NCBI GenBank assembly: GCA_019747795.1
Contig: JAIEQK010000051.1
Span: 1 to 33,426 of the forward strand
Length of the DNA stretch: 33,426 nt
Origin: Gammaproteobacteria bacterium
Lineage (GTDB): Bacteria; Pseudomonadota; Gammaproteobacteria; Ga0077536
Direction: 5' to 3'
Shown in pieces: positions 2 through 14,054 of the stretch; position 1 is the first letter of the stretch, and each line of letters starts with the position of its first letter. The translations under genes and the position numbers were made by a program. The notes beneath the pieces are model-generated. The model had not been told where the DNA came from. It searched no databases and was given only the letters and a program-made list of their open reading frames with translations.

Positions 2-970
2 GCGAGCGGCGCCTTCGCCCGCGAGGCGCGGCTGGCCGACGGCGGCGTGCGGCTGCGCCGCCTGCGCGACGGCGCGCGCATCGAGGTGCTGGTGGTGAAG
101 GACGCCAGCGTACGCGCGCTGAAACTCGTCGCCGGCGAGATCGACCTCGCCCAGGGCAACCTGCCGCCGGAGATGCTCGACTGGCTGGGCACGCAGGCCG
201 GCGTGACCGTGATGGCGCGGCCCGGGACCACCTACAGCTACCTGGGGCTCGCGCTCGCCCACCCCGCGCTCGCCGACAGACGCGTGCGCGAGGCGCTCAG
301 CCTGGCCATCGATCGCGAGGCCATCACGCGCCATCTCTTTCGCGGTCTCGCGCGGCCGGCCGGCGGTCTGCTGCCGGCCAGCCACTGGGCCGCGGCGGAT
401 CTCGCGCCGCCGCCTTACGACCCGGCGCGTGCCCGCGCGCTGCTGGCCGAGGCCGGCTACGGCGCGCGGCCGCTTCGGCTGCGCTACAAGACCTCGGCCG
501 ACGCGTTCCGCCTGCGCGTGGCGACCGCGCTGCAGGCGCAGCTCGCGCAGGTGGGCGTGGAACTCGCGATCGACAGCCTGGACTGGGCGACCTTCTACGC
601 CGACGTCAGCCACGGGCGCTTCGAGCTCTACGGGCTCTCCTTCGTCGGCGTGAGCCTGCCCGACATCTTTCGCCAGGTCTTCCACGGCAGTGCGCGGCCG
701 CCGGCGGGGCTCAACCGCGGTGGCTACGCGGCACCCGACACCGACAGGCTGATCGAGGCGGCCGAAGCCGAGACCGACGACGCGCGCCGTGTGGCGCTGT
801 ACCGGGCGGTGCAGCGGCGCGTGGAGTACGATCTGCCGCTCCTTCCCCTCTGGTTCGAGGATCAGACCGCGGTGCTTCGACGCGAACTCCACGACTACGA
901 ACTCGATGCCCAGGGCAGCTTCGACGGGCTGGCGCGGGTGCGACGGGTGACGGCCGATGGCGGACGTTGA
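2..970 (+). CDS. ABC transporter substrate-binding protein, family 5 (peptide type), 5' truncated
   Basis: This is the C-terminal part of a periplasmic solute-binding protein of the oligopeptide/dipeptide/murein-peptide class (SBP_bac_5). The frame is already open at base 2, so the start lies left of the window. Recognisable pieces are 'RVREALSLAIDREAI' followed by 'YDPARARALLAEAGY', the usual hinge and domain II signatures of this family, then a C-terminal 'RVEYDLPLLPLWFEDQ' segment. It should bind a peptide in the periplasm and pass it to a DppB/DppC-type channel; such permeases lie about 3.2 kb downstream on the same strand. The next gene starts 14 nt before this one ends, which suggests translational coupling. 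The family is clear. The substrate is not visible, although the neighbourhood (YkuD, NagZ) makes murein peptides an attractive guess. Confidence 0.9.
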   Translation, partial: ASGAFAREARLADGGVRLRRLRDGARIEVLVVKDASVRALKLVAGEIDLAQGNLPPEMLDWLGTQAGVTVMARPGTTYSYLGLALAHPALADRRVREALSLAIDREAITRHLFRGLARPAGGLLPASHWAAADLAPPPYDPARARALLAEAGYGARPLRLRYKTSADAFRLRVATALQAQLAQVGVELAIDSLDWATFYADVSHGRFELYGLSFVGVSLPDIFRQVFHGSARPPAGLNRGGYAAPDTDRLIEAAEAETDDARRVALYRAVQRRVEYDLPLLPLWFEDQTAVLRRELHDYELDAQGSFDGLARVRRVTADGGR

Positions 971-1445
971 ACGCATCGAAGTCGACCTCGGCCGCCAGGA
1001 GCTGCGCCTGCTGGACGGCGCGCGGGTGCTGGCCCGCTACGCGGTGTCCACCGCGCGCAACGGGGCGGGCGAGATCATGAACAGCGAGTGCACGCCGCGC
1101 GGCGCGCACGCCATCGCCGAGAAGATCGGCGCCGGCTGCGTGCCGAACACGGTGTTCGTCGCGCGTCGTCCGACCGGCGAGATCTACGACGCCGAGTTCG
1201 CGGCCCGCCATCCGGGGCGCGACTGGATCCTGACCCGCATCCTGTGGCTCACGGGGCTCGAGCCCGGTTTCAACGCCGGCGGCGAGCGCGACACCCACGC
1301 CCGCTACATCTACCTGCACGGTACGCCCGACAGCACGCCGCTCGGCGTCGCCGGTTCGCGGGGCTGCGTGCGCATGCGCAATGCCGACATCCTGGAACTG
1401 TTCGAGCGGGTGGCGGTCGGCACCCGGGTCGACATTCGCGAATGA
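957..1445 (+). CDS. YkuD-domain L,D-transpeptidase/L,D-carboxypeptidase-like protein without signal peptide
   Basis: This 162-residue protein consists almost entirely of a YkuD catalytic domain. The active-site signature is complete: HGTP at residues 121-124 and SRGCVRM at 134-140, with Cys137 as nucleophile. YkuD enzymes normally cross-link peptidoglycan in the periplasm, but this one starts directly with the domain ('MADVERIEVDLGRQELRLL') and shows no signal peptide or membrane anchor. The ATG at 957 overlaps the upstream binding-protein gene by 14 nt. From memory, the arrangement resembles the small cytoplasmic YkuD proteins such as Acinetobacter ElsL/LdtK, which act as L,D-carboxypeptidases on recycled murein tetrapeptides. 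Placement beside a peptide ABC transporter and nagZ fits that role. The YkuD fold is certain; cytoplasmic carboxypeptidase activity is inferred. Confidence 0.9.
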   Translation: MADVERIEVDLGRQELRLLDGARVLARYAVSTARNGAGEIMNSECTPRGAHAIAEKIGAGCVPNTVFVARRPTGEIYDAEFAARHPGRDWILTRILWLTGLEPGFNAGGERDTHARYIYLHGTPDSTPLGVAGSRGCVRMRNADILELFERVAVGTRVDIRE

Positions 1446-1530: not shown

Positions 1531-2445
1531 ATGCGCGCCATCCTTCGTTCGCTTCGCCCACGCGTCGCCTGGGTGCTGCTCGGCCTGTTGGGGTCGACCA
1601 CGGTGGCCGCGGTCGACGCCGAGTTCTCCTGGGCCTCGCTGAGCGCCGAACAGCGCTACGTCCTGCAGCGCTACGCGGGGCAGTGGTCGCGGGCGAGCGT
1701 CGCGTCGCGGCGCACGATGGTGATGCGTGCGAACGCCATGCTGGTGGCGAGCCATGCAAAGAGCAGTCAGTCGGAACCGGCCGGCGAGCCAGGCCCGGGC
1801 GAGTCGGTTGCCGAGGATGAAGGTGTGAGCACGGCGCGCGATAAAGCTCATGCCGATTCCCCGCGCCGCAAGCCAGTGGCGAGTCAGACGGCAAGACTGT
1901 CGAGTAGCGAGGCCGTGCTCTCGGCGCACAGCTCCAAGCTGCGCGCGCGCCTGCGGGAGACCCCTGGCCTGTCCCTTGCCGAAAGGAAGGACGTGCTGGA
2001 GCGGTGGTCGAAGCTGTCGCCGCGGGAGCGCATAGCACTGGTCGAGCGCTACGCGAACACCTTCATCGACAACGAGGAGATCACGTTGCAGCGCGCATTG
2101 CGCGAGGGCACCATTCGCGCGTCCAAGCTGCAGCGCGGACTGGTGACGGAGCGCATCACGCCGCGCGACGCGGCGGCGGCCATGCGCGATGGTAAGTTGA
2201 GCACCAAGACCTTGCGCGCGGCATTGCCCGACGATCTGGACGTCGCCTTCGAAATCGAGACCGCCGCCCGCACAGGCGAGGACCCGCCGCCGCTCGACGG
2301 TCGATTGACCGACACGGTGCGCCGCAACCGCAAGGAGGGCGGCGAGCTGGCCGCCTCCTCCAAGTCCACCGACCGTCCCATCACCGACATACGCAAGGCG
2401 GCAGCCAGTACCGCGGCTGGACGTGTCGAGCGAGGTGAGCGGTAA
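1531..2445 (+). CDS. exported DUF3106-like protein
   Basis: This is a 304-residue protein of unknown function. I chose the ATG at 1531 because it puts a signal peptide at the N-terminus: basic start, a hydrophobic run 'VAWVLLGLLG', and a likely cut near residue 27-30. The same frame is open further upstream, but that part overlaps the YkuD gene. The mature part is charged and mostly helical in appearance. Two stretches, 'LSAEQRYVLQRYAGQW' near residue 37 and 'VLERWSKLSPRERIALV' near residue 156, resemble the W-x-x-LSPEER pattern of DUF3106 proteins. A Ser/Glu/Lys-rich linker lies between them. It follows the YkuD gene by 85 nt on the same strand. The export signal is well supported; the DUF3106 assignment rests on motif resemblance only. 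Confidence 0.6.
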   Translation: MRAILRSLRPRVAWVLLGLLGSTTVAAVDAEFSWASLSAEQRYVLQRYAGQWSRASVASRRTMVMRANAMLVASHAKSSQSEPAGEPGPGESVAEDEGVSTARDKAHADSPRRKPVASQTARLSSSEAVLSAHSSKLRARLRETPGLSLAERKDVLERWSKLSPRERIALVERYANTFIDNEEITLQRALREGTIRASKLQRGLVTERITPRDAAAAMRDGKLSTKTLRAALPDDLDVAFEIETAARTGEDPPPLDGRLTDTVRRNRKEGGELAASSKSTDRPITDIRKAAASTAAGRVERGER

Positions 2446-2571: not shown

Positions 2572-3576
2572 ATGCCGAAGCCGTCCCTCGATGTTCACGC
2601 CGCCGTCGGCGCGCAGCCTGTGATTCCGTACCCCGCGGAGCGGGGCGCGAAGAGGGCGCAGTCGAAGCCGCCACGCTGGTCGCGCCTGATCACGGTCCAT
2701 CCCTGTTTCATCGACGGCGTGCGCACGCTGGTGCACGCGCGCGGCCTGGAGAAGTCCCGCGAGCTGTTCGTCCGGCTCGAGGCCTACGCGCGCCGCCACG
2801 GCTTTCGCCTGCTGGCCGATCGCCGCCGCCGCGAGCTGACCTGCCGCGACGAGCGCCGCCGCCTGGCGCCGCTCCTGCTGTTCGCCGCCGGCCTGCTCGG
2901 CCAGGGCGTGCAGGCGGCCGACGGCGAGCTGCGCGACGGGCCGACGGCCGTGGTGCCGACCATCGATGTGATCGGCGAGCGCCCGACGGCGCCCGGCGGT
3001 CGCGACTACCTGATCGAGGCCGGCAAGCGTTTCGTGTCGCGCCCTCACGGTACGACCGAACTGATCCTCGGCATCGCCGAGGAGGTCAAGGCCAAGGGCG
3101 AGAAGCACCGCGTTCGCACGCGCGGCATCCACATGCCGGCGGAGTACACCGACAGCTTCGTCGACCGTTACGACTACACCCTGCCGACCGCCTGCGGTGA
3201 GGCGACCTTCAGCTATTACGAGGGCGAGGGCTTCGGCGCGCTCGGCTACCACGCCGGCCGCGGGACGGTGATCCTGGACGTGCTGGCTGGTGGCGGGCCG
3301 TTCTCGGCGCCGCGCCTGTGGGGTCCCTACGACCAGGTGCTGAACGCCAACATCCGCATGGACCTGATGATGGGCGACGGCCTCAAGGACGGCATGGGCC
3401 TGCTGCAGGCGTCCTACAAGATCGGCCTCGTGCCGGTGATGCGCAAGGCGACCAAGAACTACTACGGAGAGCTCTACGCGCGCGCGGTGCTGGACGCCGC
3501 CAACTGCGTGATGCCGAACTCGCCGGCCGTGATCCAGGCGGCGGCGCAGAACACCATGGCCGCGGTCGAGGAGTAA
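2572..3576 (+). CDS. unknown protein with an internal signal/anchor-like segment
   Basis: I do not recognise this 334-residue protein. Residues 1-97 are basic and look cytoplasmic ('VRTLVHARGLEKSRELFVRL'). They end in a strongly basic cluster (RDERRR, 92-97). A hydrophobic stretch follows at 98-115, finishing in 'GQGVQAADGE', which looks like a signal-peptide core with an A-x-A cleavage site. The remaining ~215 residues are neutral and contain aromatic, Gly-rich patches. They would therefore lie outside the inner membrane. After the segment comes 'PTIDVIGERP', which loosely recalls a TonB-box-like strand; this is a resemblance only. Either the true start lies inside the frame, or this is a type II membrane protein with a cytoplasmic head. 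An independent promoter could lie in the 126-nt gap upstream, but no convincing -35/-10 pair was seen. Confidence 0.65.
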   Translation: MPKPSLDVHAAVGAQPVIPYPAERGAKRAQSKPPRWSRLITVHPCFIDGVRTLVHARGLEKSRELFVRLEAYARRHGFRLLADRRRRELTCRDERRRLAPLLLFAAGLLGQGVQAADGELRDGPTAVVPTIDVIGERPTAPGGRDYLIEAGKRFVSRPHGTTELILGIAEEVKAKGEKHRVRTRGIHMPAEYTDSFVDRYDYTLPTACGEATFSYYEGEGFGALGYHAGRGTVILDVLAGGGPFSAPRLWGPYDQVLNANIRMDLMMGDGLKDGMGLLQASYKIGLVPVMRKATKNYYGELYARAVLDAANCVMPNSPAVIQAAAQNTMAAVEE

Positions 3577-3585
3577 GGGCGCGCC

Positions 3586-4089
3586 TCAGCGCTGCCCGCG
3601 CGCGATCTCGTCGATGATGGCGCGCGCGAGTTTCTTCACCTTGGCGTCGTAGAGCACCAGCTCGCCGCCGGTGCGCACCGCCGCCATGGCGAGCGTGCCG
3701 AGCAGGAACAAGAGCAGGATGGCGAGCAGCCAGGCGACGAAGTAGGCCACGCTCACGTCCCGCGGCGCGGCACCGGGCGCCTGGCTGTCCTCAGGCAGGC
3801 GCGCCGCGTCGGGGCGCACGCCAAGGTCGAGCTGGCGCCGCGCGTCGCTGGCCGCGCCGCGCACCGCCTTGTCGATGTGCGAGCCGCGCTCGATCGCGCG
3901 AGCGAAGCCGTCGATGTTGGACGGGTCGTGGTACAGCGACCAGGCGCTGACGATGACGGTCAGCGCCACCACCAGGCCGAACACCATCAGCAGCATGCCG
4001 AAGCCGCGCGCTGCGAGGTGCATGACGCGATGACCGCGCTCGGTCCAGTGTTCGGGCGGCGGATCCTGCTTGAATTCGAAACGGGCCAC
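3586..4089 (-). CDS. two-span inner-membrane protein of unknown function
   Basis: This 167-residue minus-strand protein starts with GTG at 4089. It has two clear hydrophobic helices, about residues 30-50 ('GFGMLLMVFGLVVALTVIVS') and 113-137 ('VAYFVAWLLAILLLFLLGTL'). Between them is a ~60-residue polar loop containing a Pro/Asp-rich part. The tail is basic and helical ('DAKVKKLARAIIDEIARGQR'), probably cytoplasmic. No family comes to mind. It is convergent with the upstream unknown gene, 9 nt separating their stop codons, and divergent from the permease gene, 76 nt between starts. It is the only minus-strand gene among the first 15 kb and interrupts the link between the binding protein and the permeases. 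Confidence 0.7.
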   Translation of the reverse strand: MARFEFKQDPPPEHWTERGHRVMHLAARGFGMLLMVFGLVVALTVIVSAWSLYHDPSNIDGFARAIERGSHIDKAVRGAASDARRQLDLGVRPDAARLPEDSQAPGAAPRDVSVAYFVAWLLAILLLFLLGTLAMAAVRTGGELVLYDAKVKKLARAIIDEIARGQR

Positions 4090-4157: not shown

Positions 4158-4165
4158 CGCCGCCC

Positions 4166-5095
4166 ATGCGTCCTCTGTTACTGGTGGTGCCGAAGCTGGC
4201 CAGCGCGCTCGTCGTCGCGCTCGGTGTGGCATCGCTGGTGTTCCTGCTGCTGCACCTGGTGCCGGGCGACCCGGTGGAGGTGATGCTCGGCGACTACGCC
4301 GGCGCGGCGGACCGCGCCGCGTTGCGCGCGCGGCTCGGGCTCGACCTGCCGCTCATCGAACAATGGCTGCGTTTCCTCGCCGGCCTCGCGCGCGGCGACC
4401 TCGGCGTGTCATTGCACAGCGGCGACACGGTGCGCGCATTGCTCGCTCGCCACTTCGCCGCAACCGCGCTGCTCGCGCTCGCCGCGTTCTGCGTGGCGCT
4501 CGCGCTCGGGCTGCCGCTCGGCGCGCTCGCCGCGCTCCACGCCGGGCGGCGCCTGGACGGGCTCGCCAGCGCCTTCGCGGTGCTGGGCATGTCGCTGCCG
4601 AGCTTCGTGCTCGGGCCGCTCTTGCTGATCCTGTTCGCGGCGCGGCTGCGCTGGTTTCCGATCGGCGGCGCCGAGAGCGCGGCCAGCCTGGTGCTGCCGG
4701 CCGTGACCTTGGGACTCGGGCTCGCCGCGGTGCTCGCACGCATGACCCGCGCGGCGCTGCTGGACGTGCAGAACCAGCCTTTCGTGCTCGCCGCGCGCGC
4801 GCGCGGCGTGGGCGAGGCGGCGGTGCTCTTGCGCCACGCGGCGCGCAACGCCGCGCTGCCGGTGGTCACCGTGCTCGGCCTGCAGCTCGGCGCGCTGCTC
4901 GGCGGCGCGGTGGTGACCGAGACGGTGTTCGACTGGCCCGGTGTGGGGCAGCTCTTGATCGAAGCCATCCAGCGTCGCGACTACCCGGTGGTGCAGGGCG
5001 CGGTGCTCCTGATCGCGCTCTGCTACATCGGCGTGAACGCGCTGGTCGAACTTCTCTACGCGTGGCTCGACCCGCGCATCGGCGGCGCGCGATGA
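4166..5095 (+). CDS. ABC transporter permease, DppB/OppB type
   Basis: This 309-residue integral membrane protein is one of the two channel subunits of a peptide-class ABC importer. It begins 'MRPLLLVVPKLASALVVA', the first span of DppB/OppB proteins, followed by 'HLVPGDPVEVMLG' and 'ARLGLDLPLIEQWLRFLAG', both typical of the family. The cytoplasmic EAA loop, which docks the ATPase, is 'ARARGVGEAAVLLRHAARNA', and the late 'ETVFDWPGVGQLLIEAI' segment is also diagnostic. The ATG at 4166 was preferred over an upstream extension because it gives the normal family start and length. Its stop overlaps the next permease start (ATGA). No ATP-binding subunit is present in the window. The likely partner is the binding protein at the left edge, by strand and family. 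Confidence 0.93.
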   Translation: MRPLLLVVPKLASALVVALGVASLVFLLLHLVPGDPVEVMLGDYAGAADRAALRARLGLDLPLIEQWLRFLAGLARGDLGVSLHSGDTVRALLARHFAATALLALAAFCVALALGLPLGALAALHAGRRLDGLASAFAVLGMSLPSFVLGPLLLILFAARLRWFPIGGAESAASLVLPAVTLGLGLAAVLARMTRAALLDVQNQPFVLAARARGVGEAAVLLRHAARNAALPVVTVLGLQLGALLGGAVVTETVFDWPGVGQLLIEAIQRRDYPVVQGAVLLIALCYIGVNALVELLYAWLDPRIGGAR

Positions 5096-5898
5096 GGTAC
5101 GCCCGCCGCGCTGCGTTGGCGGTGCTCCTCGTGTGGCTCGCGCTGGCGCTCGTGGCGGACGTGCTGCCGCTCGCGCCGAACGCGGTCGATCTGCCCGGCA
5201 TCCTCGCCGCGCCCGACGCCGAGCACTGGCTCGGCCGGGACGACCTGGGGCGCGCGGTGGGCGCACGCCTGGTGCAGGGCGCGCAGGTCTCGCTGCTGGT
5301 GTCTGTGCTGGTGGTGACCTTGACCACGTGCTTCGGCACGGCGCTCGGCCTCTTCGCCGGCTGGCGCGGCGGCCTGGTCGACGCGCTCCTGATGCGGGTC
5401 ACGGAGCTCTTCCTGGCCTTTCCCGGCATCCTGCTCGCCATCGCCCTGGCCGGGGTGCTGGGGCCAGGCCTCGGCAACGTGGTGCTCGCGCTGGGCGCGG
5501 TCGGCTGGGTCGGCTTCGCGCGCCTGGCGCGCGCGCAGACGCTGGCGCTCCGCGACCGCGACCACGTGCAGGTCGCCCACGCCCTCGGCCAGCCGCCGCT
5601 CGTCATCGTGTTGCGCCACGTGCTGCCGCTCCTGGCCGGTCCCTTGATCGTCGAGGCGAGCTTCGCCGCCGCCGCCACCGTGGTGGCCGAGGCCGGGCTG
5701 TCGTTCCTGGGCCTCGGCGTGCAGCCGCCCACGCCGTCCTGGGGCAGCATGCTGCGCGATGGCGCGCGCTACCTGCTGGTCGCGCCGCACTTGGTCCTGG
5801 TCCCGGGGCTCGCGCTCGCGAGCCTGGTGGTGGCGCTCAACCTGCTCGGCGATGCGCTGCGCGATCGCCTGGACCCGCGTGCGGTCAGGCTACACTAG
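5092..5898 (+). CDS. ABC transporter permease, DppC/OppC type
   Basis: This is a 268-residue inner-membrane protein and second channel subunit of the peptide-class importer. Family features are the N-terminal span, then 'HWLGRDDLGRAVGARLVQGA' (the DppC hallmark 'LGTDxxGRDxxSR' in variant form). The transmembrane block includes 'FLAFPGILLAIALAGVLGPG', and the ending is 'AGLSFLGLGVQPPTPSWGSM'. The EAA-like loop is in the 'RDHVQVAHALGQPPLVIVLR' region. The gene starts in an ATGA overlap with the DppB-type gene and ends 25 nt before nagZ. It is slightly shorter than many DppC proteins because the N-terminal cytoplasmic tail is short. The function is secure at family level; the transported substrate is inferred only from neighbours. 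Confidence 0.93.
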   Translation: MRYARRAALAVLLVWLALALVADVLPLAPNAVDLPGILAAPDAEHWLGRDDLGRAVGARLVQGAQVSLLVSVLVVTLTTCFGTALGLFAGWRGGLVDALLMRVTELFLAFPGILLAIALAGVLGPGLGNVVLALGAVGWVGFARLARAQTLALRDRDHVQVAHALGQPPLVIVLRHVLPLLAGPLIVEASFAAAATVVAEAGLSFLGLGVQPPTPSWGSMLRDGARYLLVAPHLVLVPGLALASLVVALNLLGDALRDRLDPRAVRLH

Positions 5899-5923: not shown

Positions 5924-6985
5924 ATGCTCGGACCCTTGATGATCGATGTCGAAGGCACGACGCTCAGTCCTGCCGATCGCGACGTGCTGCGTCACCCGCT
6001 GGTCGGCGGCGTGATCCTGTTCGCGCGCAACTACGAGAGCCCGGCGCAGGTCGCGGCGCTCACCGCCGAGATCCACGCGCTGCGCGAGCCGCGGCTCCTG
6101 ATCGCGGTCGACCAGGAGGGCGGGCGGGTGCAACGCTTCCGCCAGGGCTTCAGCGAGCTGCCGGCGCTGGCGCGGCTGGGCGAGGTGTACGACCGCGCGC
6201 CGGAGGCGGCGCTCGCGTTGGCCGCCGACTGCGCCTGGCTGATGGCGAACGAGCTGCGCGCGGTGGGCGTGGATTTCAGCTTCGCGCCGGTGCTCGATCT
6301 GCAGAGCCCGCAGAGCACCGTGATCGGCGAGCGCGCGCTGCACGCCGATGGCGCGACGGTGGCGCGGCTGGCGCGGGCCTACATCGCCCAGCTGCACCGC
6401 TGCGGCATGGCGGCGGTGGGCAAGCATTTTCCCGGGCATGGGCTGGTCGTCGCCGACTCCCACCACGAGCTGCCGGTCGACGAGCGCGACTACATCGATC
6501 TGCAGCAGGCCGACCTGGTGCCGTTCCGCGCGGCCATCGCCGCGGGTATCGAGGGCATCATGACCGCGCACGTCCTCTACCCGCGCGTCGACGCGGCGGT
6601 GGCCGGCTACTCGCGCCACTGGATTCGTCATGTGCTGCGCGAAGAGCTGCATTTCAGCGGTGCGGTGTTCAGTGACGACCTCAGCATGGCGGGCGCCGAC
6701 CTCGGCCAGAACTACGGCGCGCGCGCGCGGCAGGCGCTGGACGCCGGCTGCGACGTGCTCCTGGTGTGCAACAACCGCGCGGGCGCGCTGGAGGTGATCG
6801 ACGCGCTGCCGGACCGCGCCTGGCCCGAGACCCAGGTGCGGCTGATGCGCATGCACGCGCGCGGCGCGGCCCCCGACCTGGCCGCGCTGAAGGCCGGCGA
6901 CGAATGGCGTGAGATCAGCGCGCGCGTGCTGCGCCTGGCGGACAGTCCCGAACTCGACCTCGCCGATGACCGCCGCCCGGCGTGA
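5924..6985 (+). CDS. nagZ: beta-N-acetylhexosaminidase NagZ
   Basis: NagZ is a cytoplasmic glycoside hydrolase family 3 enzyme. It removes GlcNAc from GlcNAc-anhydroMurNAc-peptides during peptidoglycan recycling. The 353-residue sequence begins 'MLGPLMIDVEGTTLS', as is usual for proteobacterial NagZ. It contains 'VDQEGGRVQRF' (substrate loop), 'KHFPGHG' at residues 167-173 with the His/Asp acid-base loop ('ADSHHELP') just after, and 'SDDLSM' at 250-255 carrying the nucleophilic Asp. The length is slightly above the usual ~340 because of the C-terminal tail. It follows the permease gene by 25 nt, and its end overlaps the TraB-family start by 20 nt. A TACACT sequence at 5891-5896 could be a -10 element, but read-through from the permeases is equally likely. 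Confidence 0.97.
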   Translation: MLGPLMIDVEGTTLSPADRDVLRHPLVGGVILFARNYESPAQVAALTAEIHALREPRLLIAVDQEGGRVQRFRQGFSELPALARLGEVYDRAPEAALALAADCAWLMANELRAVGVDFSFAPVLDLQSPQSTVIGERALHADGATVARLARAYIAQLHRCGMAAVGKHFPGHGLVVADSHHELPVDERDYIDLQQADLVPFRAAIAAGIEGIMTAHVLYPRVDAAVAGYSRHWIRHVLREELHFSGAVFSDDLSMAGADLGQNYGARARQALDAGCDVLLVCNNRAGALEVIDALPDRAWPETQVRLMRMHARGAAPDLAALKAGDEWREISARVLRLADSPELDLADDRRPA

Positions 6986-7892
6986 GCGCCTCGCGCGCGT
7001 CGTCCGGCTGTGCCTGCTGCTGTGGTCGACCCTGTCGTGGGCGCTGGAGGACCCGGGCTGCACGCCGCTGGTTCGCGCCGCGCCGCGCACCGCAAGCGTC
7101 GCCCATCCGAGCGGTCTCCTGTGGCGGCTGACGCCCGCGCAGGGCGCGCCCAGCTACCTGCTCGGCACCATGCACATCGGCGATCCGCGTGTGATGCGCG
7201 TGATGGACATCGCCCGTCCGCAGTTCGACCAGGCCTCGCGCTTCGTGCTCGAGGTGGCGCTCGACGACGCGGCGCTGCGCGGGCTCGGTGAAGCGATGTT
7301 CTACCGAGATGGCCGGCGCCTCCGCGCGGTGGCCGGCGAGGCCCTGTTCGACGCGACCGAGGCGCGGCTCGCCGCGCACGGCATCGCCGGGCCGCTGGCC
7401 GACAGCATCAAGCCCTGGGCGGCCTTCACCACGCTCAGCATGCCGGCCGAGAGCGGCGCCGCGCTGCCGCTCGACCTGGCGCTGATGGCGGCCGCGCAGG
7501 CGGCGGGCAAGGACGTGGTGGGCCTGGAGAGCGTGGCGGAACAGGTCGCGGTGTTCGAGGGCGTGGCCGAGACCGACCAGGTGGAGATGCTGCGCGAGGT
7601 CGTGTGTCACTACGGCGTGTTCCAGGCGGAACTGGCCGAGATGATCGATGCCTACGTCGCGCGCGATCTTGCGGCGCTGGTCAGCCAGGCCGAGCGCTAC
7701 GCCAACGACGCCAAGGACGCGCTGATGGAACGCCTCCTGTTCGCGCGGAACGAGCGCATGGCCGCGCGCATCGCGCCGCTCGTCGACCAGGGGCAGGCCT
7801 TCATCGCCATCGGCGCGCTGCATCTGCCCGGCGAACGCGGCGTGCTCAGCCTGCTGGAGGCACGGGGTTACCGGGTCGAGCGGGTATACTGA
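6966..7892 (+). CDS. exported TraB/GumN (YbaP-like) family protein
   Basis: This 308-residue protein belongs to the TraB/PrgY/GumN family, a possibly metal-dependent hydrolase fold whose proteobacterial members have poorly known roles. Its paired GxxH motifs are present: GTMH at 67-70 and GALH at 283-286. A signal peptide is apparent ('VVRLCLLLWSTLSWA', cut near residue 26), so it should be periplasmic or membrane-associated. The ATG at 6966 lies inside the end of nagZ (20-nt overlap) and provides the signal peptide; the frame further upstream is only nagZ in another reading. Co-expression with nagZ is likely. Family membership is clear; the substrate is unknown. Confidence 0.88.
   Translation: MTAARRERLARVVRLCLLLWSTLSWALEDPGCTPLVRAAPRTASVAHPSGLLWRLTPAQGAPSYLLGTMHIGDPRVMRVMDIARPQFDQASRFVLEVALDDAALRGLGEAMFYRDGRRLRAVAGEALFDATEARLAAHGIAGPLADSIKPWAAFTTLSMPAESGAALPLDLALMAAAQAAGKDVVGLESVAEQVAVFEGVAETDQVEMLREVVCHYGVFQAELAEMIDAYVARDLAALVSQAERYANDAKDALMERLLFARNERMAARIAPLVDQGQAFIAIGALHLPGERGVLSLLEARGYRVERVY
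7885..7890 (+). promoter_or_regulatory. possible -10 element upstream of dapF
   Basis: TATACT at 7885-7890 matches five of six bases of the sigma-70 -10 consensus in an otherwise GC-rich context, 23 nt before the dapF ATG. It overlaps the last codons of the preceding gene. No good -35 partner is visible at the proper distance. Confidence 0.3.
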
Positions 7893-7913
7893 GCGCTCAG
7901 CCAGGACCCACCC

Positions 7914-8747
7914 ATGAAAATCCCCTTTGCCAAGATGCACGGGCTCGGCAACGACTTCGTCGTGCTCGATCAGCGCGCGCGTCACTACGGGCTCGCGCCT
8001 GAGCAGCTGGCGTTTCTGGCCGATCGGCACCTGGGCGTGGGCTGCGACCAGCTCCTGTCGCTCGAGCCGCCGCGCAACGCCGAGGCCGCCGTGCGCTACG
8101 TGATCTTCAACGCCGACGGTTCGCCCGCCGAGCACTGCGGCAACGGCGTGCGCTGCGTGGCGCGCTACCTGGATCTCCGCGGCGAGGTGCGGGGTGGACG
8201 GGTCGGCGTCGAGATCGGCGACGCGGTGTACGAACTCGCGGTGCTGGACAACGGCGACGTGCGCGTCGACATGGGCCGGCCGCGCTTCGCGCCGCGCGAC
8301 ATTCCGCTCGCGGCGGCAGCCGAGAGCGATCGCTATGCGCTCGACGCCGAGGGCCGCGCCTGGCAGTTCGGCGCGGTGTCCATGGGCAATCCACACGCGG
8401 TGTTCGAAGTGCCCGACACCGCCAGCGCGCCGGTCGCGACGCTCGGCCCGCTGCTGCAGGATCACCCGCTGTTCCCGCGCCGGGTGAACGTCGGCTTCAT
8501 GCAGGTCGAGGCCGCGGAGCGCATCCGTCTGCGGGTGTTCGAGCGCGGCGTGGGCGAGACCCGCGCCTGCGGCACCGGCGCTTGCGCGGCGGTGGCGGTC
8601 GGTCGAAGATGGGGCCGGCTCGCGCCCGAGGTCGAGGTGCTGCTCACTGGCGGACGTCTCACCATCGCCTGGGACGGACAGCCCGACCATTCGCTGTGGA
8701 TGACCGGTCCCGCCACGTTCGTCTTTGAAGGAACCATCGATCTATGA
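7914..8747 (+). CDS. dapF: diaminopimelate epimerase
   Basis: DapF interconverts LL- and meso-diaminopimelate in the cytoplasm, the last step before lysine formation and the source of meso-DAP for peptidoglycan. The 277-residue protein begins 'MKIPFAKMHGLGNDFVVLD', the standard family start. It carries both catalytic cysteines, Cys75 in 'EHCGNGVRC' and Cys219 in 'ACGTGACAAV', which are the acid/base pair. The 'GNPHAVF' substrate loop is also present. The length is normal. It follows the TraB-family gene by 21 nt and overlaps the DUF484 gene (ATGA), reproducing the dapF-DUF484-xerC order common in gammaproteobacteria. Confidence 0.98.
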   Translation: MKIPFAKMHGLGNDFVVLDQRARHYGLAPEQLAFLADRHLGVGCDQLLSLEPPRNAEAAVRYVIFNADGSPAEHCGNGVRCVARYLDLRGEVRGGRVGVEIGDAVYELAVLDNGDVRVDMGRPRFAPRDIPLAAAAESDRYALDAEGRAWQFGAVSMGNPHAVFEVPDTASAPVATLGPLLQDHPLFPRRVNVGFMQVEAAERIRLRVFERGVGETRACGTGACAAVAVGRRWGRLAPEVEVLLTGGRLTIAWDGQPDHSLWMTGPATFVFEGTIDL

Positions 8748-9451
8748 CCCTGCCCGGCCACACCGAAGGCCTCGCCACCGCCGTCGAGCCGCGCGCGGTG
8801 ATGGATTTTCTCGCCGCCAACCCGACCTTTCTCGATCAGCATCCGGATCTCCTCCGCCAGCTCAGCATTCCGCATGGGAGCGGCGATGCGGTTTCGCTGC
8901 TCGAGCGCCAGGTGGTGGTGCTGCGCGAGGACAACGCGCGCCTGCGCCAGCAGCTCGACTCGCTGCTCCGCCACGCGCGCAGCAACGAACTGCTGACGCG
9001 GAAGATTCACGCCCTGGTGCTGACGCTCATGAACGCGGTCGGACCGCAGGCGGTGTTCGCGAGTCTGGAGCGCGGTCTGTGCGCGGACTTCGGCGCGGAC
9101 CGGGTAACGAGCCTGGTGTTCGCGCCGTCGGCCGCGGTCGACGCGCAGGATCTCGCGCCCTTCGTCGGCGTCGACTCGCCGCTGCGCGCGGCCTTCGATG
9201 CCCTGCTCATCGCCGGCGCCTCGGTGTGCGGACCCCTGGCCCCGGACCAGGCGCGCGCGGTGGCGGAGGACTTCCAGGGCTCGGCGGTGATCCTGCCGCT
9301 CAAGGGGCGCGGCTGGGACGGCGTGGTGATCTGCGCGAGCGCGGACCAGCACCGCTACTCGGCCGACATGGGGACCGAACTCCTCGACTACCTGCGCGAG
9401 GTGGCGACCCTGGTGATCGATCCGTGGGTGAAACGCAGTCCGCGTCCCTGA
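8744..9451 (+). CDS. DUF484 family protein (GAF-like)
   Basis: This 235-residue protein matches DUF484, a family found almost always between dapF and xerC. Its biochemical role is unknown. The N-terminal signature 'VMDFLAANPTFLDQHPDLL' is characteristic. It is followed by a heptad-rich helix ('LLERQVVVLREDNARLRQQL', roughly residues 46-70) that should form a coiled coil. The remaining ~150 residues look like a GAF-type alpha/beta domain. The start overlaps dapF (ATGA), and the end overlaps the xerC start by 28 nt, so the three genes are probably translated in a coupled fashion. There is no signal peptide. Confidence 0.88.
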   Translation: MTLPGHTEGLATAVEPRAVMDFLAANPTFLDQHPDLLRQLSIPHGSGDAVSLLERQVVVLREDNARLRQQLDSLLRHARSNELLTRKIHALVLTLMNAVGPQAVFASLERGLCADFGADRVTSLVFAPSAAVDAQDLAPFVGVDSPLRAAFDALLIAGASVCGPLAPDQARAVAEDFQGSAVILPLKGRGWDGVVICASADQHRYSADMGTELLDYLREVATLVIDPWVKRSPRP

Positions 9452-10353
9452 CCCCGGCGCAGGCCGCGCGCCGCGCCGCCTGCGAGGACTTCCTGCGCAC
9501 CCTGGCCGGGCGCTCGGCCCATACCCGCGCGGCCTACGCGCGCGATCTCCTGCAGTTCACGCAGTGGCTCGAGGGGCGCGGCATCGATGACTACCAGGCC
9601 ATCGACAGCCATTGCCTGCGCGCCTACGTCGCCGACCGGCATCGCGACGGCCTCGGCGGCACGTCCCTGGCCCGCGCGCTGTCCGCGCTGCGCGCCTGGT
9701 TCAAGCACCTCGGCGCGCAGGGCCTGATCGGCGCCAACCCGGCTCACGGCCTGCGACCGCCGAAGTCGCCACGCCGCCTGCCACGCACCCTGGACGTCGA
9801 CCAGGTGACCCGCGTGCTGGAACAGGACGTAGAAAGCGTGCTGGCGATGCGCGATCGCGCCATGTGGGAGACGCTCTACTCGAGCGGCTTGCGCGTGTCG
9901 GAACTGGTGGGGCTCGATCTCGCCAGCCTCGACCTGCGGTCGGCGGAGGCACGGGTGCTCGGCAAAGGGCGCAAGGAGCGCGTGGTGCCCGTGGGGCGCC
10001 ACGCAGTCGAGGCGCTCACGGCGTGGCTCGCGCGGCGCCACGAACTCGCGCGGGCCGAGATGCCGGCGGTATTCGTCAATCATCGTGGTGGCCGGCTCAC
10101 CACGCGGGGGGTGCAGCAGCGCCTCGCGCGCTGGTGCGTGACCCAGGGACTCGATCTCAGTCTGCATCCGCACATGCTGCGTCATTGCTTCGCTTCGCAC
10201 CTGCTGGAATCCTCGGGCGACCTGCGCGCCGTGCAGGAGCTGCTCGGCCACGCCAACATCTCCACCACGCAGATCTACACCCACCTCGATTTCCAGCGCC
10301 TCGCCCAGGTCTACGATGCGAGCCACCCGCGGGCGCGTCGCCGCTCCGGGTAA
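9424..10353 (+). CDS. xerC: tyrosine recombinase XerC
   Basis: XerC acts with XerD at the dif site to resolve chromosome dimers. The 309-residue reading uses GTG at 9424 (start '[17 protein letters not shown]'), which overlaps the DUF484 gene by 28 nt. Longer in-frame extension upstream is only a shadow of that gene. The N-terminal SAM-like DNA-binding domain covers about residues 18-105 ('[20 protein letters not shown]'). The catalytic domain contains Arg157 in 'SSGLRVSEL', Lys in 'GKGRKER', the '[12 protein letters not shown]' box (His and second Arg), the '[15 protein letters not shown]' box and the nucleophile Tyr285. Its position after dapF-DUF484 separates it from XerD or an integron/phage integrase. 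Confidence 0.96.
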
Positions 10354-10399
10354 GGCCATCGTGTACAATCGCCGCCTGACCGCCGGAAACCCTTCGAAC

Positions 10400-10933
10400 G
10401 TGCTGCACGGAACCACCATCCTGTCTGTCCGCCGCGGGCGCGACGTCGTCATCGGCGGCGACGGCCAGGTGTCGATGGGCGACACCATCCTCAAGGGCAA
10501 CGCGCGCAAGGTGCGGCGTCTGTACCAGGAGCAGGTCATCGCCGGTTTCGCCGGCGGCACCGCCGATGCCTTCACCCTGTTCGAACGCTTCGAGGGCAAA
10601 CTCGAAGAGCATCGCGGCAACCTGCTGCGCGCCGCGGTGGAATTGGCCAAGGACTGGCGCACCGATCGCATGCTGCGTCGGTTGGAGGCCATGCTCGCGG
10701 TCGCCAACCGCGATCACTCGCTGATCATCTCCGGCACCGGCGACGTCATCGAGCCCGAGCACGACATCATCGCCATCGGCTCCGGTGGCGCCTATGCGCG
10801 CGCCGCGGCGCGCGCGCTGCTGGCCGAGACCAGCCTGTCGCCGGAGGCCATCGTGCGCCGTGGGCTCGCCATCGCCGGCGAGATCTGCGTCTACACCAAC
10901 GACCACGTCACCCTCGAGAGCCTGACCGGCTGA
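10400..10933 (+). CDS. hslV: ATP-dependent protease subunit HslV
   Basis: HslV is the threonine peptidase of the HslVU protease, a two-ring dodecamer capped by HslU. The conserved mature N-terminus 'TTILSVRRG' supplies the catalytic Thr once the short leader is removed. '[20 protein letters not shown]' and '[17 protein letters not shown]' are typical, as is '[19 protein letters not shown]'. With GTG at 10400 the product is 177 residues, with leader M-L-H-G before the Thr, close to the M-x-x-x-H-G leaders of related proteins. An alternative GTG at 10361 has a better Shine-Dalgarno (AAGG, 5 nt away) and would give a 17-residue leader. An ATG at 10316 lies within xerC. hslU follows after 10 nt. 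Confidence 0.96.
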
Positions 10934-10943
10934 GCGCGCCACC

Positions 10944-12278
10944 ATGGGCATGAGCACCCTCACCCCGCAGGAGATCGTCGAACAGCTCGACAAGCACATC
11001 GTCGGGCAGGCCGAGGCCAAGCGCGCGGTCGCGATCGCGCTGCGCAACCGCTGGCGTCGCGCCCAGGTGGAACCCGGGCTGCGCAACGAGATCACGCCCA
11101 AGAACATCCTGATGATCGGGCCGACCGGTGTCGGCAAGACCGAGATCGCGCGGCGTCTCGCGCGCCTCGCCGGCGCACCCTTCATCAAGATCGAAGCGAC
11201 CAAGTTCACCGAGGTCGGCTACGTCGGCCGTGACGTCGACTCGATCATCCGCGACCTCGCCGACATCGCGGTCAACATGGAACGCGAAGCCGCGATGGGG
11301 CAGGTGCGCGCCCTGGCCGAGGACGCCGCCGAGGAGCGCCTGCTCGACGTGCTGCTGCCCGGGCCGCGCACTTTCGGCGAGCCCGCCTCGCAGGACGACA
11401 CCTCGGCGACCCGCCAGCGCTTCCGCAAGATGTTGCGCGAGGGCAAGCTGGAGGATCGCGAGGTGGAGATCGAGGTCGCCACGCCCAATGTCGGGGTAGA
11501 GATCATGTCGCCGCCCGGCATGGAGGAGATGACCAGCCAGCTGCGCGGCATGTTCCAGAACCTGTCGGCCGGGCGCAAACGCAGCCGGCGCGTGCAGATC
11601 GCCCAGGCGCGCAAGCTGCTGGTCGAGGAAGAGGCCGCCAAGCTCATCAACGAAGAAGACCTGCGCGTGCGCGCGCTCGACAACCTCGAGCAGAACGGCA
11701 TCGTGTTCTTGGACGAGATCGACAAGGTCGCGAAACGCTCCGACACCCATGGTCCGGACGTCTCGCGCGAAGGCGTGCAGCGCGATCTCCTGCCGCTGGT
11801 GGAGGGCTGCTCGATCAGCACCAAGCACGGCATGGTGAAGACCGATCACGTGCTCTTCATCGCCTCGGGTGCGTTCCACTTCGCCAAGCCCTCGGATCTC
11901 ATCCCTGAACTGCAGGGACGTCTGCCGAACCGCGTCGAACTCGCGCCCCTCACGGTCGAGGACTTCGTGCGCATCCTCACCGAACCCGACGCGTCGCTCA
12001 CGCGCCAGTACAAGGCGCTGCTCGCGACCGAGAACGTCGCGCTCGACTTCACCGCCGACGGCGTCGCGCGCATCGCCGAAATCGCCTGCTCGATCAACGA
12101 GCGCAGCGAGAACATCGGCGCGCGGCGTCTGCACACGGTGATGGAGAAGCTCCTGGAGGCGGTGTCCTTCACCGCCCCCGGGCTGGACGGCCAGCACCTG
12201 GTCGTCGACGCCGACTACGTCAATCGTCACATCGGCCGCCTGGTGGCGGACGACAACCTGGCCAAGTACATCCTCTGA
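10944..12278 (+). CDS. hslU: ATP-dependent protease ATPase subunit HslU
   Basis: HslU is the AAA+ unfoldase that feeds substrates into HslV. The 444-residue protein begins '[20 protein letters not shown]'. It shows Walker A GPTGVGKT at 59-66, the substrate-gripping pore loop GYVG at 92-95, and Walker B with Asp257-Glu258 ('IVFLDEIDK'). The family-specific intermediate domain lies between about residues 110 and 240. Sensor and arginine-finger regions follow ('[11 protein letters not shown]', '[16 protein letters not shown]'). It ends in 'LAKYIL', the C-terminal tail that docks into HslV pockets. The length is normal. The gene sits 10 nt after hslV, and the DUF971 gene starts one base after its stop. 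ATG at 10950 (Met3) is a possible alternative start. Confidence 0.98.
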
Positions 12279-12279
12279 C

Positions 12280-12645
12280 ATGTCCACCCATCTGCCGACC
12301 GACATTCGTCTGCACCAGCAGTCGCGCAAGCTCGAGCTCTGCTTCGAGGACGGCAAGACCTTCATGCTGCCCTGTGAATACCTGCGCGTGCATTCGCCCT
12401 CCGCGGAAGTGCGTGGCCACAGCCCCGAACAGGCGGTCCTGCAGGTGGGCAAGGAAGACGTCAACATCACCGCCATCGAGGCGGTCGGCAACTACGCCAT
12501 CAAGCTCGTCTTCAGCGACGGTCACGACACGGGTCTGTATGCCTGGGACTACCTCTACGAACTCGGCGCGCGCCAGGCGGAGTACTGGCAGCGCTACCTG
12601 GCCGCGCTCGCGGCCGCGGGCGTGACGCGCCGCGCGGACGGCTGA
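12280..12645 (+). CDS. DUF971 (gamma-butyrobetaine hydroxylase N-terminal-like) protein
   Basis: This 121-residue protein consists of a single DUF971/GBBH-like N-terminal domain. In eukaryotes the same module sits at the front of gamma-butyrobetaine hydroxylase. Stand-alone bacterial copies have an undefined role and commonly lie between hslU and ubiE, as here. Diagnostic strings are 'IRLHQQSRKLELCFEDGKTF', 'LRVHSPSAEVRGH' and 'IEAVGNYAIKLVFSDGHDTG', then 'YAWDYLYELG'. It begins one base after the hslU stop and ends one base before the GTG of ubiE, so all three are probably one transcript. It is cytoplasmic by composition. Confidence 0.9.
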   Translation: MSTHLPTDIRLHQQSRKLELCFEDGKTFMLPCEYLRVHSPSAEVRGHSPEQAVLQVGKEDVNITAIEAVGNYAIKLVFSDGHDTGLYAWDYLYELGARQAEYWQRYLAALAAAGVTRRADG

Positions 12646-12646
12646 C

Positions 12647-13408
12647 GTGACCACGGACGGGCAGGACGACGGCGAGAGCCTGTTCGGCTACGAGCGGGTC
12701 GCGCCTGGCACCAAGACCGCGCGCGTGCGCCGGGTGTTCGACGCGGTCAGCCCGCGCTACGACTTGATGAACGACCTGATGTCCGCGGGCCTGCACCGTC
12801 TGTGGAAGCGCTTCGCGGTCGATCTCCTGAAACTCAGGCCTGGCCACGTGGTGCTGGATCTCGCCGGCGGCACGGGCGACATCGCGCGCCTGCTGGCCAG
12901 GCGTTTTCCCGGTCGGAACCAGGTGCTGGTGAGCGACATCAACGCGCAGATGCTGTGGCGCGGACGCGACCGCAGTCTCGATGCCGGCGTGGTCGAGGGC
13001 GTGGAGTACGTGCAGGCAAATGCCGAGGCGCTGCCCTTCGCGAGCGGCAGCATCGATCGCGTGACGATGGGTTTCGGCCTGCGCAATGTCACCCACAAGC
13101 AGGCCGCGCTCGGCGAGATCGCGCGCGTGCTCCGGCCGGGCGGCCGGCTGGTGGTGCTGGAATTCTCCGCGGTGAAGTCGCCGCTCCTGGCGCGCGCCTA
13201 CGATGCGTACTCGTTCCAGGTGCTGCCGCGTCTCGGCCAGCTGGTGGCGGGCGACGGCGACAGCTACCGCTATCTCGCCGAGTCCATCCGTGTGCACCCC
13301 GACCAGGAGGCGCTCAAGTTCATGATGGAGCGCGCCGGCTTCGAAGACGTGCGCTATCACAACCTGCTGGCCGGCGTGGTCGCCGTGCACGCGGGCTGGA
13401 AGTTCTGA
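12647..13408 (+). CDS. ubiE: UbiE methyltransferase (ubiquinone/menaquinone C-methylation)
   Basis: UbiE is a class I SAM-dependent methyltransferase that C-methylates the ring of 2-polyprenyl-6-methoxy-benzoquinol (ubiquinone path) or demethylmenaquinol. The 253-residue product starts at GTG 12647. It contains 'VFDAVSPRYDLMNDLMSAGL' (family signature 1), the SAM-binding 'LDLAGGTGD' at 70-78, and 'GFGLRNVTHKQAALGEIARV' (signature 2). It ends 'GVVAVHAGWKF', as in E. coli UbiE. The length is normal. It is followed after one base by ubiJ and then ubiB, the classical ubiEJB operon. Confidence 0.98.
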   Translation: MTTDGQDDGESLFGYERVAPGTKTARVRRVFDAVSPRYDLMNDLMSAGLHRLWKRFAVDLLKLRPGHVVLDLAGGTGDIARLLARRFPGRNQVLVSDINAQMLWRGRDRSLDAGVVEGVEYVQANAEALPFASGSIDRVTMGFGLRNVTHKQAALGEIARVLRPGGRLVVLEFSAVKSPLLARAYDAYSFQVLPRLGQLVAGDGDSYRYLAESIRVHPDQEALKFMMERAGFEDVRYHNLLAGVVAVHAGWKF

Positions 13409-13409
13409 C

Positions 13410-14054
13410 GTGGCCGAGGCGCGCGGCGACTTCACCGATCCGCTGCTCGAGCGCGCGGAGCGGTTGATCTCCGCCGCCGTGTCGCGGCTCCTGAAGACCC
13501 ACCCCGACACCGCCGAGCGCCTCGCCGGGCTCGAAGGCCAGGTCATCGAGGTGGCGCTGCGCGACGGCTCGCGCAGCGTCTACGCCTTTCCCGGCGCCGA
13601 GGGCGTGCGCCTGAAGCGTCGTCATGCCGGCCCGGTGGCGGTCAAGGTGAGCGGTCGGTTGTCGGACTTCCTGGCCTATGCGCGCGCCAGCCGGCGCGGC
13701 GAGACGCTCGGCGCCGGGCGCATCGAGATCATGGGCGACCTGGCCGTCGCGCAGCGCGTGCAGGGCCTGCTCGCCGAGCTGCGCATCGACTGGGAAGAGC
13801 TGCTGTCGCGGCTGGTGGGCGACGTGCCTGCCCACCAGGTCGGCCGCGCGGCGCGCGCGCTGCTCGCTTTCGGGCGGGAAGCGCTCGGCAAGCTCGAACG
13901 CGATACCGCCGAGTACCTGAAGCACGAACTCAGGCTCGCCGTGGAACGCGACGAGGTGGAGCGTTTCGGCCGCGACGCGTTTCGGCTCGCCGATGACGTG
14001 GATCGTCTGGAGGCGCGCCTGCGCCGCCTCGCCGAGCGCCGCGGCCGGCGATGA
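13410..14054 (+). CDS. ubiJ: ubiquinone biosynthesis accessory factor UbiJ
   Basis: UbiJ is a lipid-binding assembly factor of the cytoplasmic ubiquinone-synthesis complex, needed with UbiK for the ring-modifying steps. The 214-residue protein starts at GTG 13410. An SCP2-like domain covers about residues 20-125 ('VSGRLSDFLAYARAS', 'GRIEIMGDLAVAQRVQGLL'). A helical, charged C-terminal region follows ('ELRLAVERDEVERFGRDAF'), probably a coiled coil that contacts UbiK. It is sandwiched between ubiE (1-nt gap) and ubiB (ATGA overlap), which is its normal place. The assignment rests on domain pattern plus position. Confidence 0.92.
   Translation: MAEARGDFTDPLLERAERLISAAVSRLLKTHPDTAERLAGLEGQVIEVALRDGSRSVYAFPGAEGVRLKRRHAGPVAVKVSGRLSDFLAYARASRRGETLGAGRIEIMGDLAVAQRVQGLLAELRIDWEELLSRLVGDVPAHQVGRAARALLAFGREALGKLERDTAEYLKHELRLAVERDEVERFGRDAFRLADDVDRLEARLRRLAERRGRR

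Follow-up and report, generated by a model that had tools for sequence, protein, structure and literature searches.

A probable ElsL-type L,D-carboxypeptidase gene beside peptide ABC transporter genes and nagZ in a gammaproteobacterium

We found that a small YkuD gene near the start of the window (the whole stretch of DNA analysed here, 33,426 nucleotides) very probably encodes an ElsL-type cytoplasmic cysteine L,D-carboxypeptidase that would replace LdcA in murein recycling. The enzyme adds to a family already described (Dai et al. 2021), and its kind has been known since 2021. The part without a published description seems to be the cluster in which elsL stands with nagZ and the genes of a peptide ABC system. 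In the literature on nagZ, ElsL, AmpG and murein-peptide transport, as far as it was accessible and with subscription journals thinly covered, we found no description of the order SBP-elsL-oppB-oppC-nagZ, where SBP is a family-5 binding protein. The result places an ElsL-type enzyme in a genus with an uncultured gammaproteobacterium as its named relative, and it shows the strength of the exclusion between ElsL and LdcA across the class. In addition, the coupling of elsL to SBP and permease genes offers a candidate, open to testing, for a second route of murein-peptide uptake in Gammaproteobacteria. Such a route, if true, would bear on cell-wall recycling and the beta-lactam response.

The elsL gene and its product

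The elsL reading frame is complete and starts with ATG. The initial annotation had described its product as a protein of 162 residues with a complete YkuD active site and no signal peptide, and this description held in every part. The only Pfam match was YkuD (PF03734, 76.7 bits over residues 6-160; cut-off 23.4), and no S66 domain was found in the protein by the same search. The active-site motifs are H121-GTP and S134-R-G-C137-V-R139-M, and in an alignment of 21 sequences H121, S134, G136 and C137 are among the 25 invariant columns. The open frame around elsL has 164 codons, with a stop two codons 5' of the ATG. Thus, an upstream start adding a signal peptide, the possibility against which the earlier reading had been set, is excluded.

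The most hydrophobic 15-mer in the first 40 residues of the window protein reached 0.69 (Kyte-Doolittle), whereas all 23 other YkuD frames have a hydrophobic 15-mer ahead of the domain (1.37 to 3.27). However, the first 35 residues of 38 ElsL relatives gave values as high as 1.85, which exceeds the minimum among the other frames (1.37), and the two groups, compared over stretches of unequal length, are not cleanly separated by hydropathy alone. On the hydropathy basis, the window protein agrees with the published description of ElsL proteins (105-200 aa, without signal peptide or membrane anchor; PMC8649774). Neither the frame nor the hydropathy revealed an export signal, the hallmark of a secreted L,D-transpeptidase.

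The predicted fold of the protein is YkuD (mean pLDDT 94.7), and the best structural neighbour of the model among the chains compared was YkuD of B. subtilis (1y7m; Z 16.3, rmsd 2.5, 113 aligned). A sequence search against solved structures returned seven YkuD/Ldt-type chains, all with alignments confined to the active-site part. The structural neighbours of the model are YkuD/L,D-transpeptidase domains, for the most part from exported enzymes. Meanwhile, the NCBIfam model LD_carbox_ElsL (NF040925) matched almost the whole protein (194.7 bits, E 8.9e-58; residues 6-158 against model positions 7-156 of 164), which supports the ElsL-type identity proposed at first. The score is below the curated cut-off of 270. 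None of 276 sampled Gammaproteobacteria genomes reaches this value, so it may have been set narrowly. Three L,D-transpeptidase models also matched, but each of these matches spans no more than 42 to 45 residues surrounding the active site. Furthermore, elsL is the only match to the ElsL model in its own genome (E <= 1e-10), despite two other YkuD genes there.

ElsL of Acinetobacter baumannii is also named LdtK. According to the accessible text of two reports, it is cytoplasmic and cuts the tetrapeptide but not the pentapeptide (PMC8649774, PMC9239154), and its discoverers counted 788 orthologs (PMC8649774). The window protein resembles it as a small YkuD protein with no signal peptide and a near full-length profile match, and the catalytic cysteine is residue 137 here and 138 in A. 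baumannii. Both come from genomes with no LdcA or LdcV-type enzyme. Unlike the A. baumannii enzyme, the window protein remains at 194.7 bits where the model asks for 270.

A YkuD tree, which had been proposed as a check, combined 23 ElsL-type rows, of which one was the window protein and 22 came from the 38 relatives fetched, with 23 further YkuD frames. The latter were the matches with a locus, minus one partial match (L190); non-ElsL matches lacking a locus were left out, and the A. baumannii ElsL sequence was absent from the rows. In each of the three trees the rows closest by path to the window protein were ElsL rows, and in the first tree the two other YkuD proteins of its genome were placed away from it. 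The window protein was thus kept among the ElsL rows, with one reservation: a secreted-looking YkuD class of five rows with the motif DWTxGCIAL nested within ElsL in two of the three trees (branch length 4.1). Removal of the LdtD-like rows still did not make ElsL one clade; the AU test on that set does not reject a single ElsL clade (p 0.307). When the five DWTxGCIAL rows were removed, ElsL formed one clade (support 99/95). This class (L184, L186, L188, L189 and L194) has frames of 202-263 aa and a very long branch, and it is not represented among the three YkuD genes of the window's own genome.

A viral origin of elsL was also considered and rejected; a scan of viral contigs returned no relative.

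ElsL and LdcA in gammaproteobacterial genomes

The window's own genome (G000; 5.94 Mb, 99% complete) carries three YkuD genes, namely elsL and two longer frames with hydrophobic N-terminal stretches. A search for ldcA, as the initial annotation had advised, gave no match to Peptidase S66 (PF02016) in this genome. VanY-type peptidase (PF02557), which we take as a proxy for the LdcV-type enzyme, also had no match there. The same genome encodes one AmpG over the cut-off and one Mpl over the cut-off (573.7 bits). LdcA is a serine peptidase unrelated to ElsL, and the proposed reaction and pathway step are the same for both. The earlier reading of elsL as a replacement or partner of LdcA thus stands for its first half: the own genome has no S66, and S66 over the cut-off occurs in only 2 of 207 ElsL genomes. 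A partner role was rejected for the own genome, where there is no S66 protein to be partnered.

A full-length ElsL relative (E < 1e-20) is present in 44 of 58 genomes (the own genome and 57 relatives), and three more have partial matches only. S66 was found in one of the 58, and that genome has no ElsL match. VanY-type peptidases over the cut-off occur in five, one of which (G036) has ElsL as well. AmpG was matched in 50 of the 58, the own genome included (47 over the cut-off), and in 37 of 41 chosen named genomes.

We then surveyed 276 Gammaproteobacteria genomes with completeness of at least 90%, using the ElsL model at 1e-10 and S66 over its cut-off. ElsL was present in 207 genomes and S66 in 27. 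Both were present in only two (G121 and G230), against about 20 expected under independence. Expressed as a contrast, ElsL occurs in 2/27 S66 genomes and 205/249 others (Fisher p 4.5e-15), and per genus in 3/22 against 163/194 (p 3.5e-11); neither p value is fully corrected for kinship, and the lists and genera were compared by hand. Two further genomes with an S66 match below the cut-off were set aside, and both have ElsL. In one genus (g59), S66 was found in two genomes and ElsL in one. These distributions indicate that ElsL and LdcA are largely mutually exclusive in Gammaproteobacteria, and the exclusion fits an exchange of non-homologous enzymes at one step. A swap of this kind had been suggested by the ElsL authors, in the accessible part of their report (PMC8649774).

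In the proposed pathway, murein turnover products with tetrapeptide stems would enter the cell via AmpG, which is encoded here, and possibly also via the neighbouring peptide ABC permease. Cys137 and His121 of ElsL would then remove the terminal D-Ala, as judged from the characterised Acinetobacter enzyme. NagZ would take off GlcNAc and Mpl would reload the tripeptide onto UDP-MurNAc; both genes are encoded, and these roles are those expected from their families. ElsL would thereby substitute for LdcA, for which the own genome gave no match.

It is very improbable that the protein is instead a small L,D-transpeptidase that reaches the periplasm along an unusual export pathway. The YkuD domain with its full active site, the structure matches to YkuD/L,D-transpeptidase domains and the nesting of the secreted-looking class inside ElsL in two of three trees would all be compatible with export, but no upstream start can supply a signal, and the ElsL model matches at 194.7 bits. 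Moreover, ElsL is largely exclusive with LdcA, a cytoplasmic enzyme, and the two longer YkuD frames of the genome, with their hydrophobic N-terminal stretches, can serve as L,D-transpeptidases. The neighbouring nagZ also speaks against export, since NagZ acts in the cytoplasm.

The gene cluster around elsL

The features of the cluster are listed in Table 1. The SBP gene is incomplete because the window starts at base 1 of its contig (C283). The frame of this gene ends within elsL, and the 14-nt overlap noted at first was found again (957-970). The permease genes and nagZ do follow on the same strand, as had been stated, but not directly: elsL and oppB are 2.7 kb apart, with two plus-strand ORFs and one minus-strand ORF between them.

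Table 1. Features of the elsL region in the window
Feature	Position	Strand	Evidence and remarks
Family-5 SBP gene (SBP_bac_5), 3' part	2..970	+	Pfam; overlaps elsL by 14 nt
elsL-like gene	957..1445	+	162-aa YkuD protein, H121/C137 active site, signal peptide absent
304-aa ORF	1531-2445	+	Weak DUF3106 match, 24.8 bits; 35% identical in G001, G002
334-aa ORF	2572-3576	+	No Pfam/NCBIfam match at 0.001
167-aa ORF	3586-4089	-	No family match; 5' of oppB
oppB-type permease (BPD_transp_1)	about 4163..5095	+	Profile match
oppC-type permease (BPD_transp_1)	5092..5898	+	Profile match
nagZ, beta-N-acetylhexosaminidase	about 5936..6985	+	NF003740, 440.3 bits (cut-off 207)
Post-nagZ run	6987-15736	+	TraB/PrgY/GumN-like, dapF, DUF484, XerC-like integrase, 444-aa AAA ATPase; then GBBH-like_N, UbiE, SCP2, ABC1-kinase genes

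Some of the intervening and following genes are conserved as well. The 334-aa ORF has counterparts with 68-76% identity at a similar place in four relatives (G001, G002, G008 and G015), and the 167-aa ORF recurs downstream of elsL in 14 of 25 regions from the own family and in one other locus (L053), with 37-65% identity. The first four genes of the post-nagZ run, from the TraB/PrgY/GumN-like gene to the XerC-like integrase gene, recur in many relatives.

To describe the conservation of the cluster, we retrieved the neighbourhoods of 38 of the 43 full-length ElsL genes in the 57 relatives and identified neighbouring genes by tblastn. Of these 38 loci, 26 have an SBP gene upstream in the same orientation, 22 have oppB downstream and 25 have nagZ. 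In 32 regions the sequence reached 1.7 kb or more upstream and 5.5 kb or more downstream: all three genes were present in 19, nagZ alone in 4, SBP alone in 2, oppB alone in 1 and nothing in 6. The relative loci are not independent, because many belong to the own family, whose members often keep the region as far as dapF. Among 80 named loci, SBP was found in 28, oppB in 19 and nagZ in 31; 54 of these were long enough, with all three in 10, nagZ alone in 13, SBP alone in 5, SBP plus oppB in 2, oppB alone in 1 and none in 23. The relative set and the named set share at least five genomes.

The full cluster also occurs beyond the own family, in f11 (L062), f12 (L053) and f23 (L051), and thus in at least four families. 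Furthermore, it was found in loci titled Legionellales (L113), Thiodiazotropha (L139) and Lamellibrachia endosymbiont (L127). In several loci (e.g., L052, L061 and L064), nagZ starts about 0.5 kb past the elsL start and the transporter is absent. No such clustering of elsL with SBP, oppBC and nagZ is mentioned for Acinetobacter in the accessible text of the two ElsL reports (PMC8649774, PMC9239154).

Three titles in the named set deserve a remark. The locus titled Klebsiella pneumoniae (L076) is identical to a contig of G032, a member of the window's own family. The loci titled Phycisphaerales (L097) and Myxococcota (L142) have elsL genes 60-64% identical to that of the window, and they may be misbinned.

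The SBP stop and the elsL start overlap by 4 to 26 nt in 22 of 24 measured loci, and the other two have gaps of 3 and 8 nt. For this measure elsL starts were set by rule, and two loci with SBP about 2.6 kb away (L045 and L047) were left out. Because of this overlap in 22/24 loci, the gene layout suggests that SBP and elsL are translationally coupled. The five full-length SBP relatives examined all have a signal-like N-terminal stretch, and four of the five have a lipobox-like cysteine after the hydrophobic stretch.

A candidate murein-peptide importer

An SBP gene and two permease genes lie beside recycling genes in the window, as would be expected for an importer. This suggests that the cluster may encode a murein-peptide ABC importer beside AmpG, with the murein peptide as putative substrate. 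For the initial label of a murein-peptide uptake cluster, the one supporting observation is the conserved gene order; AmpG is present in the genome as well, and no peptide-transporter ATPase gene was found in the cluster. In a wider form, many Gammaproteobacteria with ElsL in place of LdcA would have a dedicated murein-peptide importer (exported SBP with OppB- and OppC-like permeases) in the elsL-nagZ cluster, acting beside AmpG or, in a few, replacing it, with an ATPase borrowed from another peptide transporter, here the YejF-like one on C320. We put this forward tentatively, at somewhat below an even chance.

By profile comparison, the SBP and the permeases belong to the peptide/nickel class with no specific subfamily, and no specific match of the SBP to MppA, OppA or NikA was found. 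The SBP resembles MppA, a murein-peptide protein, no more strongly than it does many others, and elsL overlaps a family-5 SBP gene in 22 of 24 loci. A cytoplasmic YkuD peptidase acting on general nutritional peptides imported by the ABC system, rather than on murein peptides, would account for both. However, nagZ adjoins elsL with no transporter in several loci, ElsL and LdcA largely exclude each other, and the known specificity of ElsL, in the accessible text, is for tetrapeptide stems (PMC8649774). We therefore consider a nutritional role highly unlikely and prefer a role in murein recycling.

The ATPase was sought by tblastn with YejF-like and OppDF-like queries in the window and in 34 full-cluster regions. 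No peptide-transporter ATPase was found there apart from a weak match on the opposite strand of L099 (99.8 bits, 27-29% identity), the other 34 having none, and an ATPase specific to the cluster was rejected. An ATPase encoded elsewhere could serve, so its absence from the cluster does not exclude importer function. The own genome has one OppD/F-tail match (30.7 bits, cut-off 27.1), within a YejF-like fused ATPase on C320. This ATPase (600.6 bits, below the YejF model cut-off of 834) sits in another peptide operon, and it could power both permeases. An OppD/F-tail match was found in 53 of the 58 genomes. Sixteen of these places were fetched, two of them being read gene by gene, and an OppB-like gene lies nearby in 14/16 and an OppC-like gene in 15/16; thus, these places look like other peptide operons.

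We also asked whether the ABC system generally replaces AmpG. This was unsupported: AmpG was matched in 50 of the 58 genomes, the own genome among them, so the transporter does not simply stand in for AmpG. SBP lies upstream of elsL in 4/4 AmpG-less and 19/30 AmpG-bearing ElsL genomes at least 90% complete (p 0.19), and in 3/4 and 22/37, respectively, of the named genomes (p 0.49). These counts were read by hand, the named ones from 41 of the 80 loci, picked mostly by gene order and with at least five shared with the relatives, and they gave no significant link between AmpG absence and SBP presence.

Two known systems invite comparison. In E. coli, MppA works with OppBCDF in murein tripeptide uptake, a family-5 SBP using a core encoded elsewhere. 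The window SBP is likewise of family 5, but it has no specific similarity to MppA, and permease genes are encoded near it. The other precedent is YejBEF-YepA of Agrobacterium, which, in the accessible text of the report, is a muropeptide-importing peptide ABC system (PMC9790009). The likeness lies in the uptake of murein fragments through a peptide ABC transporter and in a component encoded apart, there the SBP YepA, from the rest of the transporter (PMC9790009). In the same accessible text, reports of YepA are confined to Alphaproteobacteria, in orders mostly without AmpG (PMC9790009). In contrast, genomes of the window type mostly have AmpG; such an ATPase is absent from their cluster, and SBP and permease genes adjoin elsL and nagZ.
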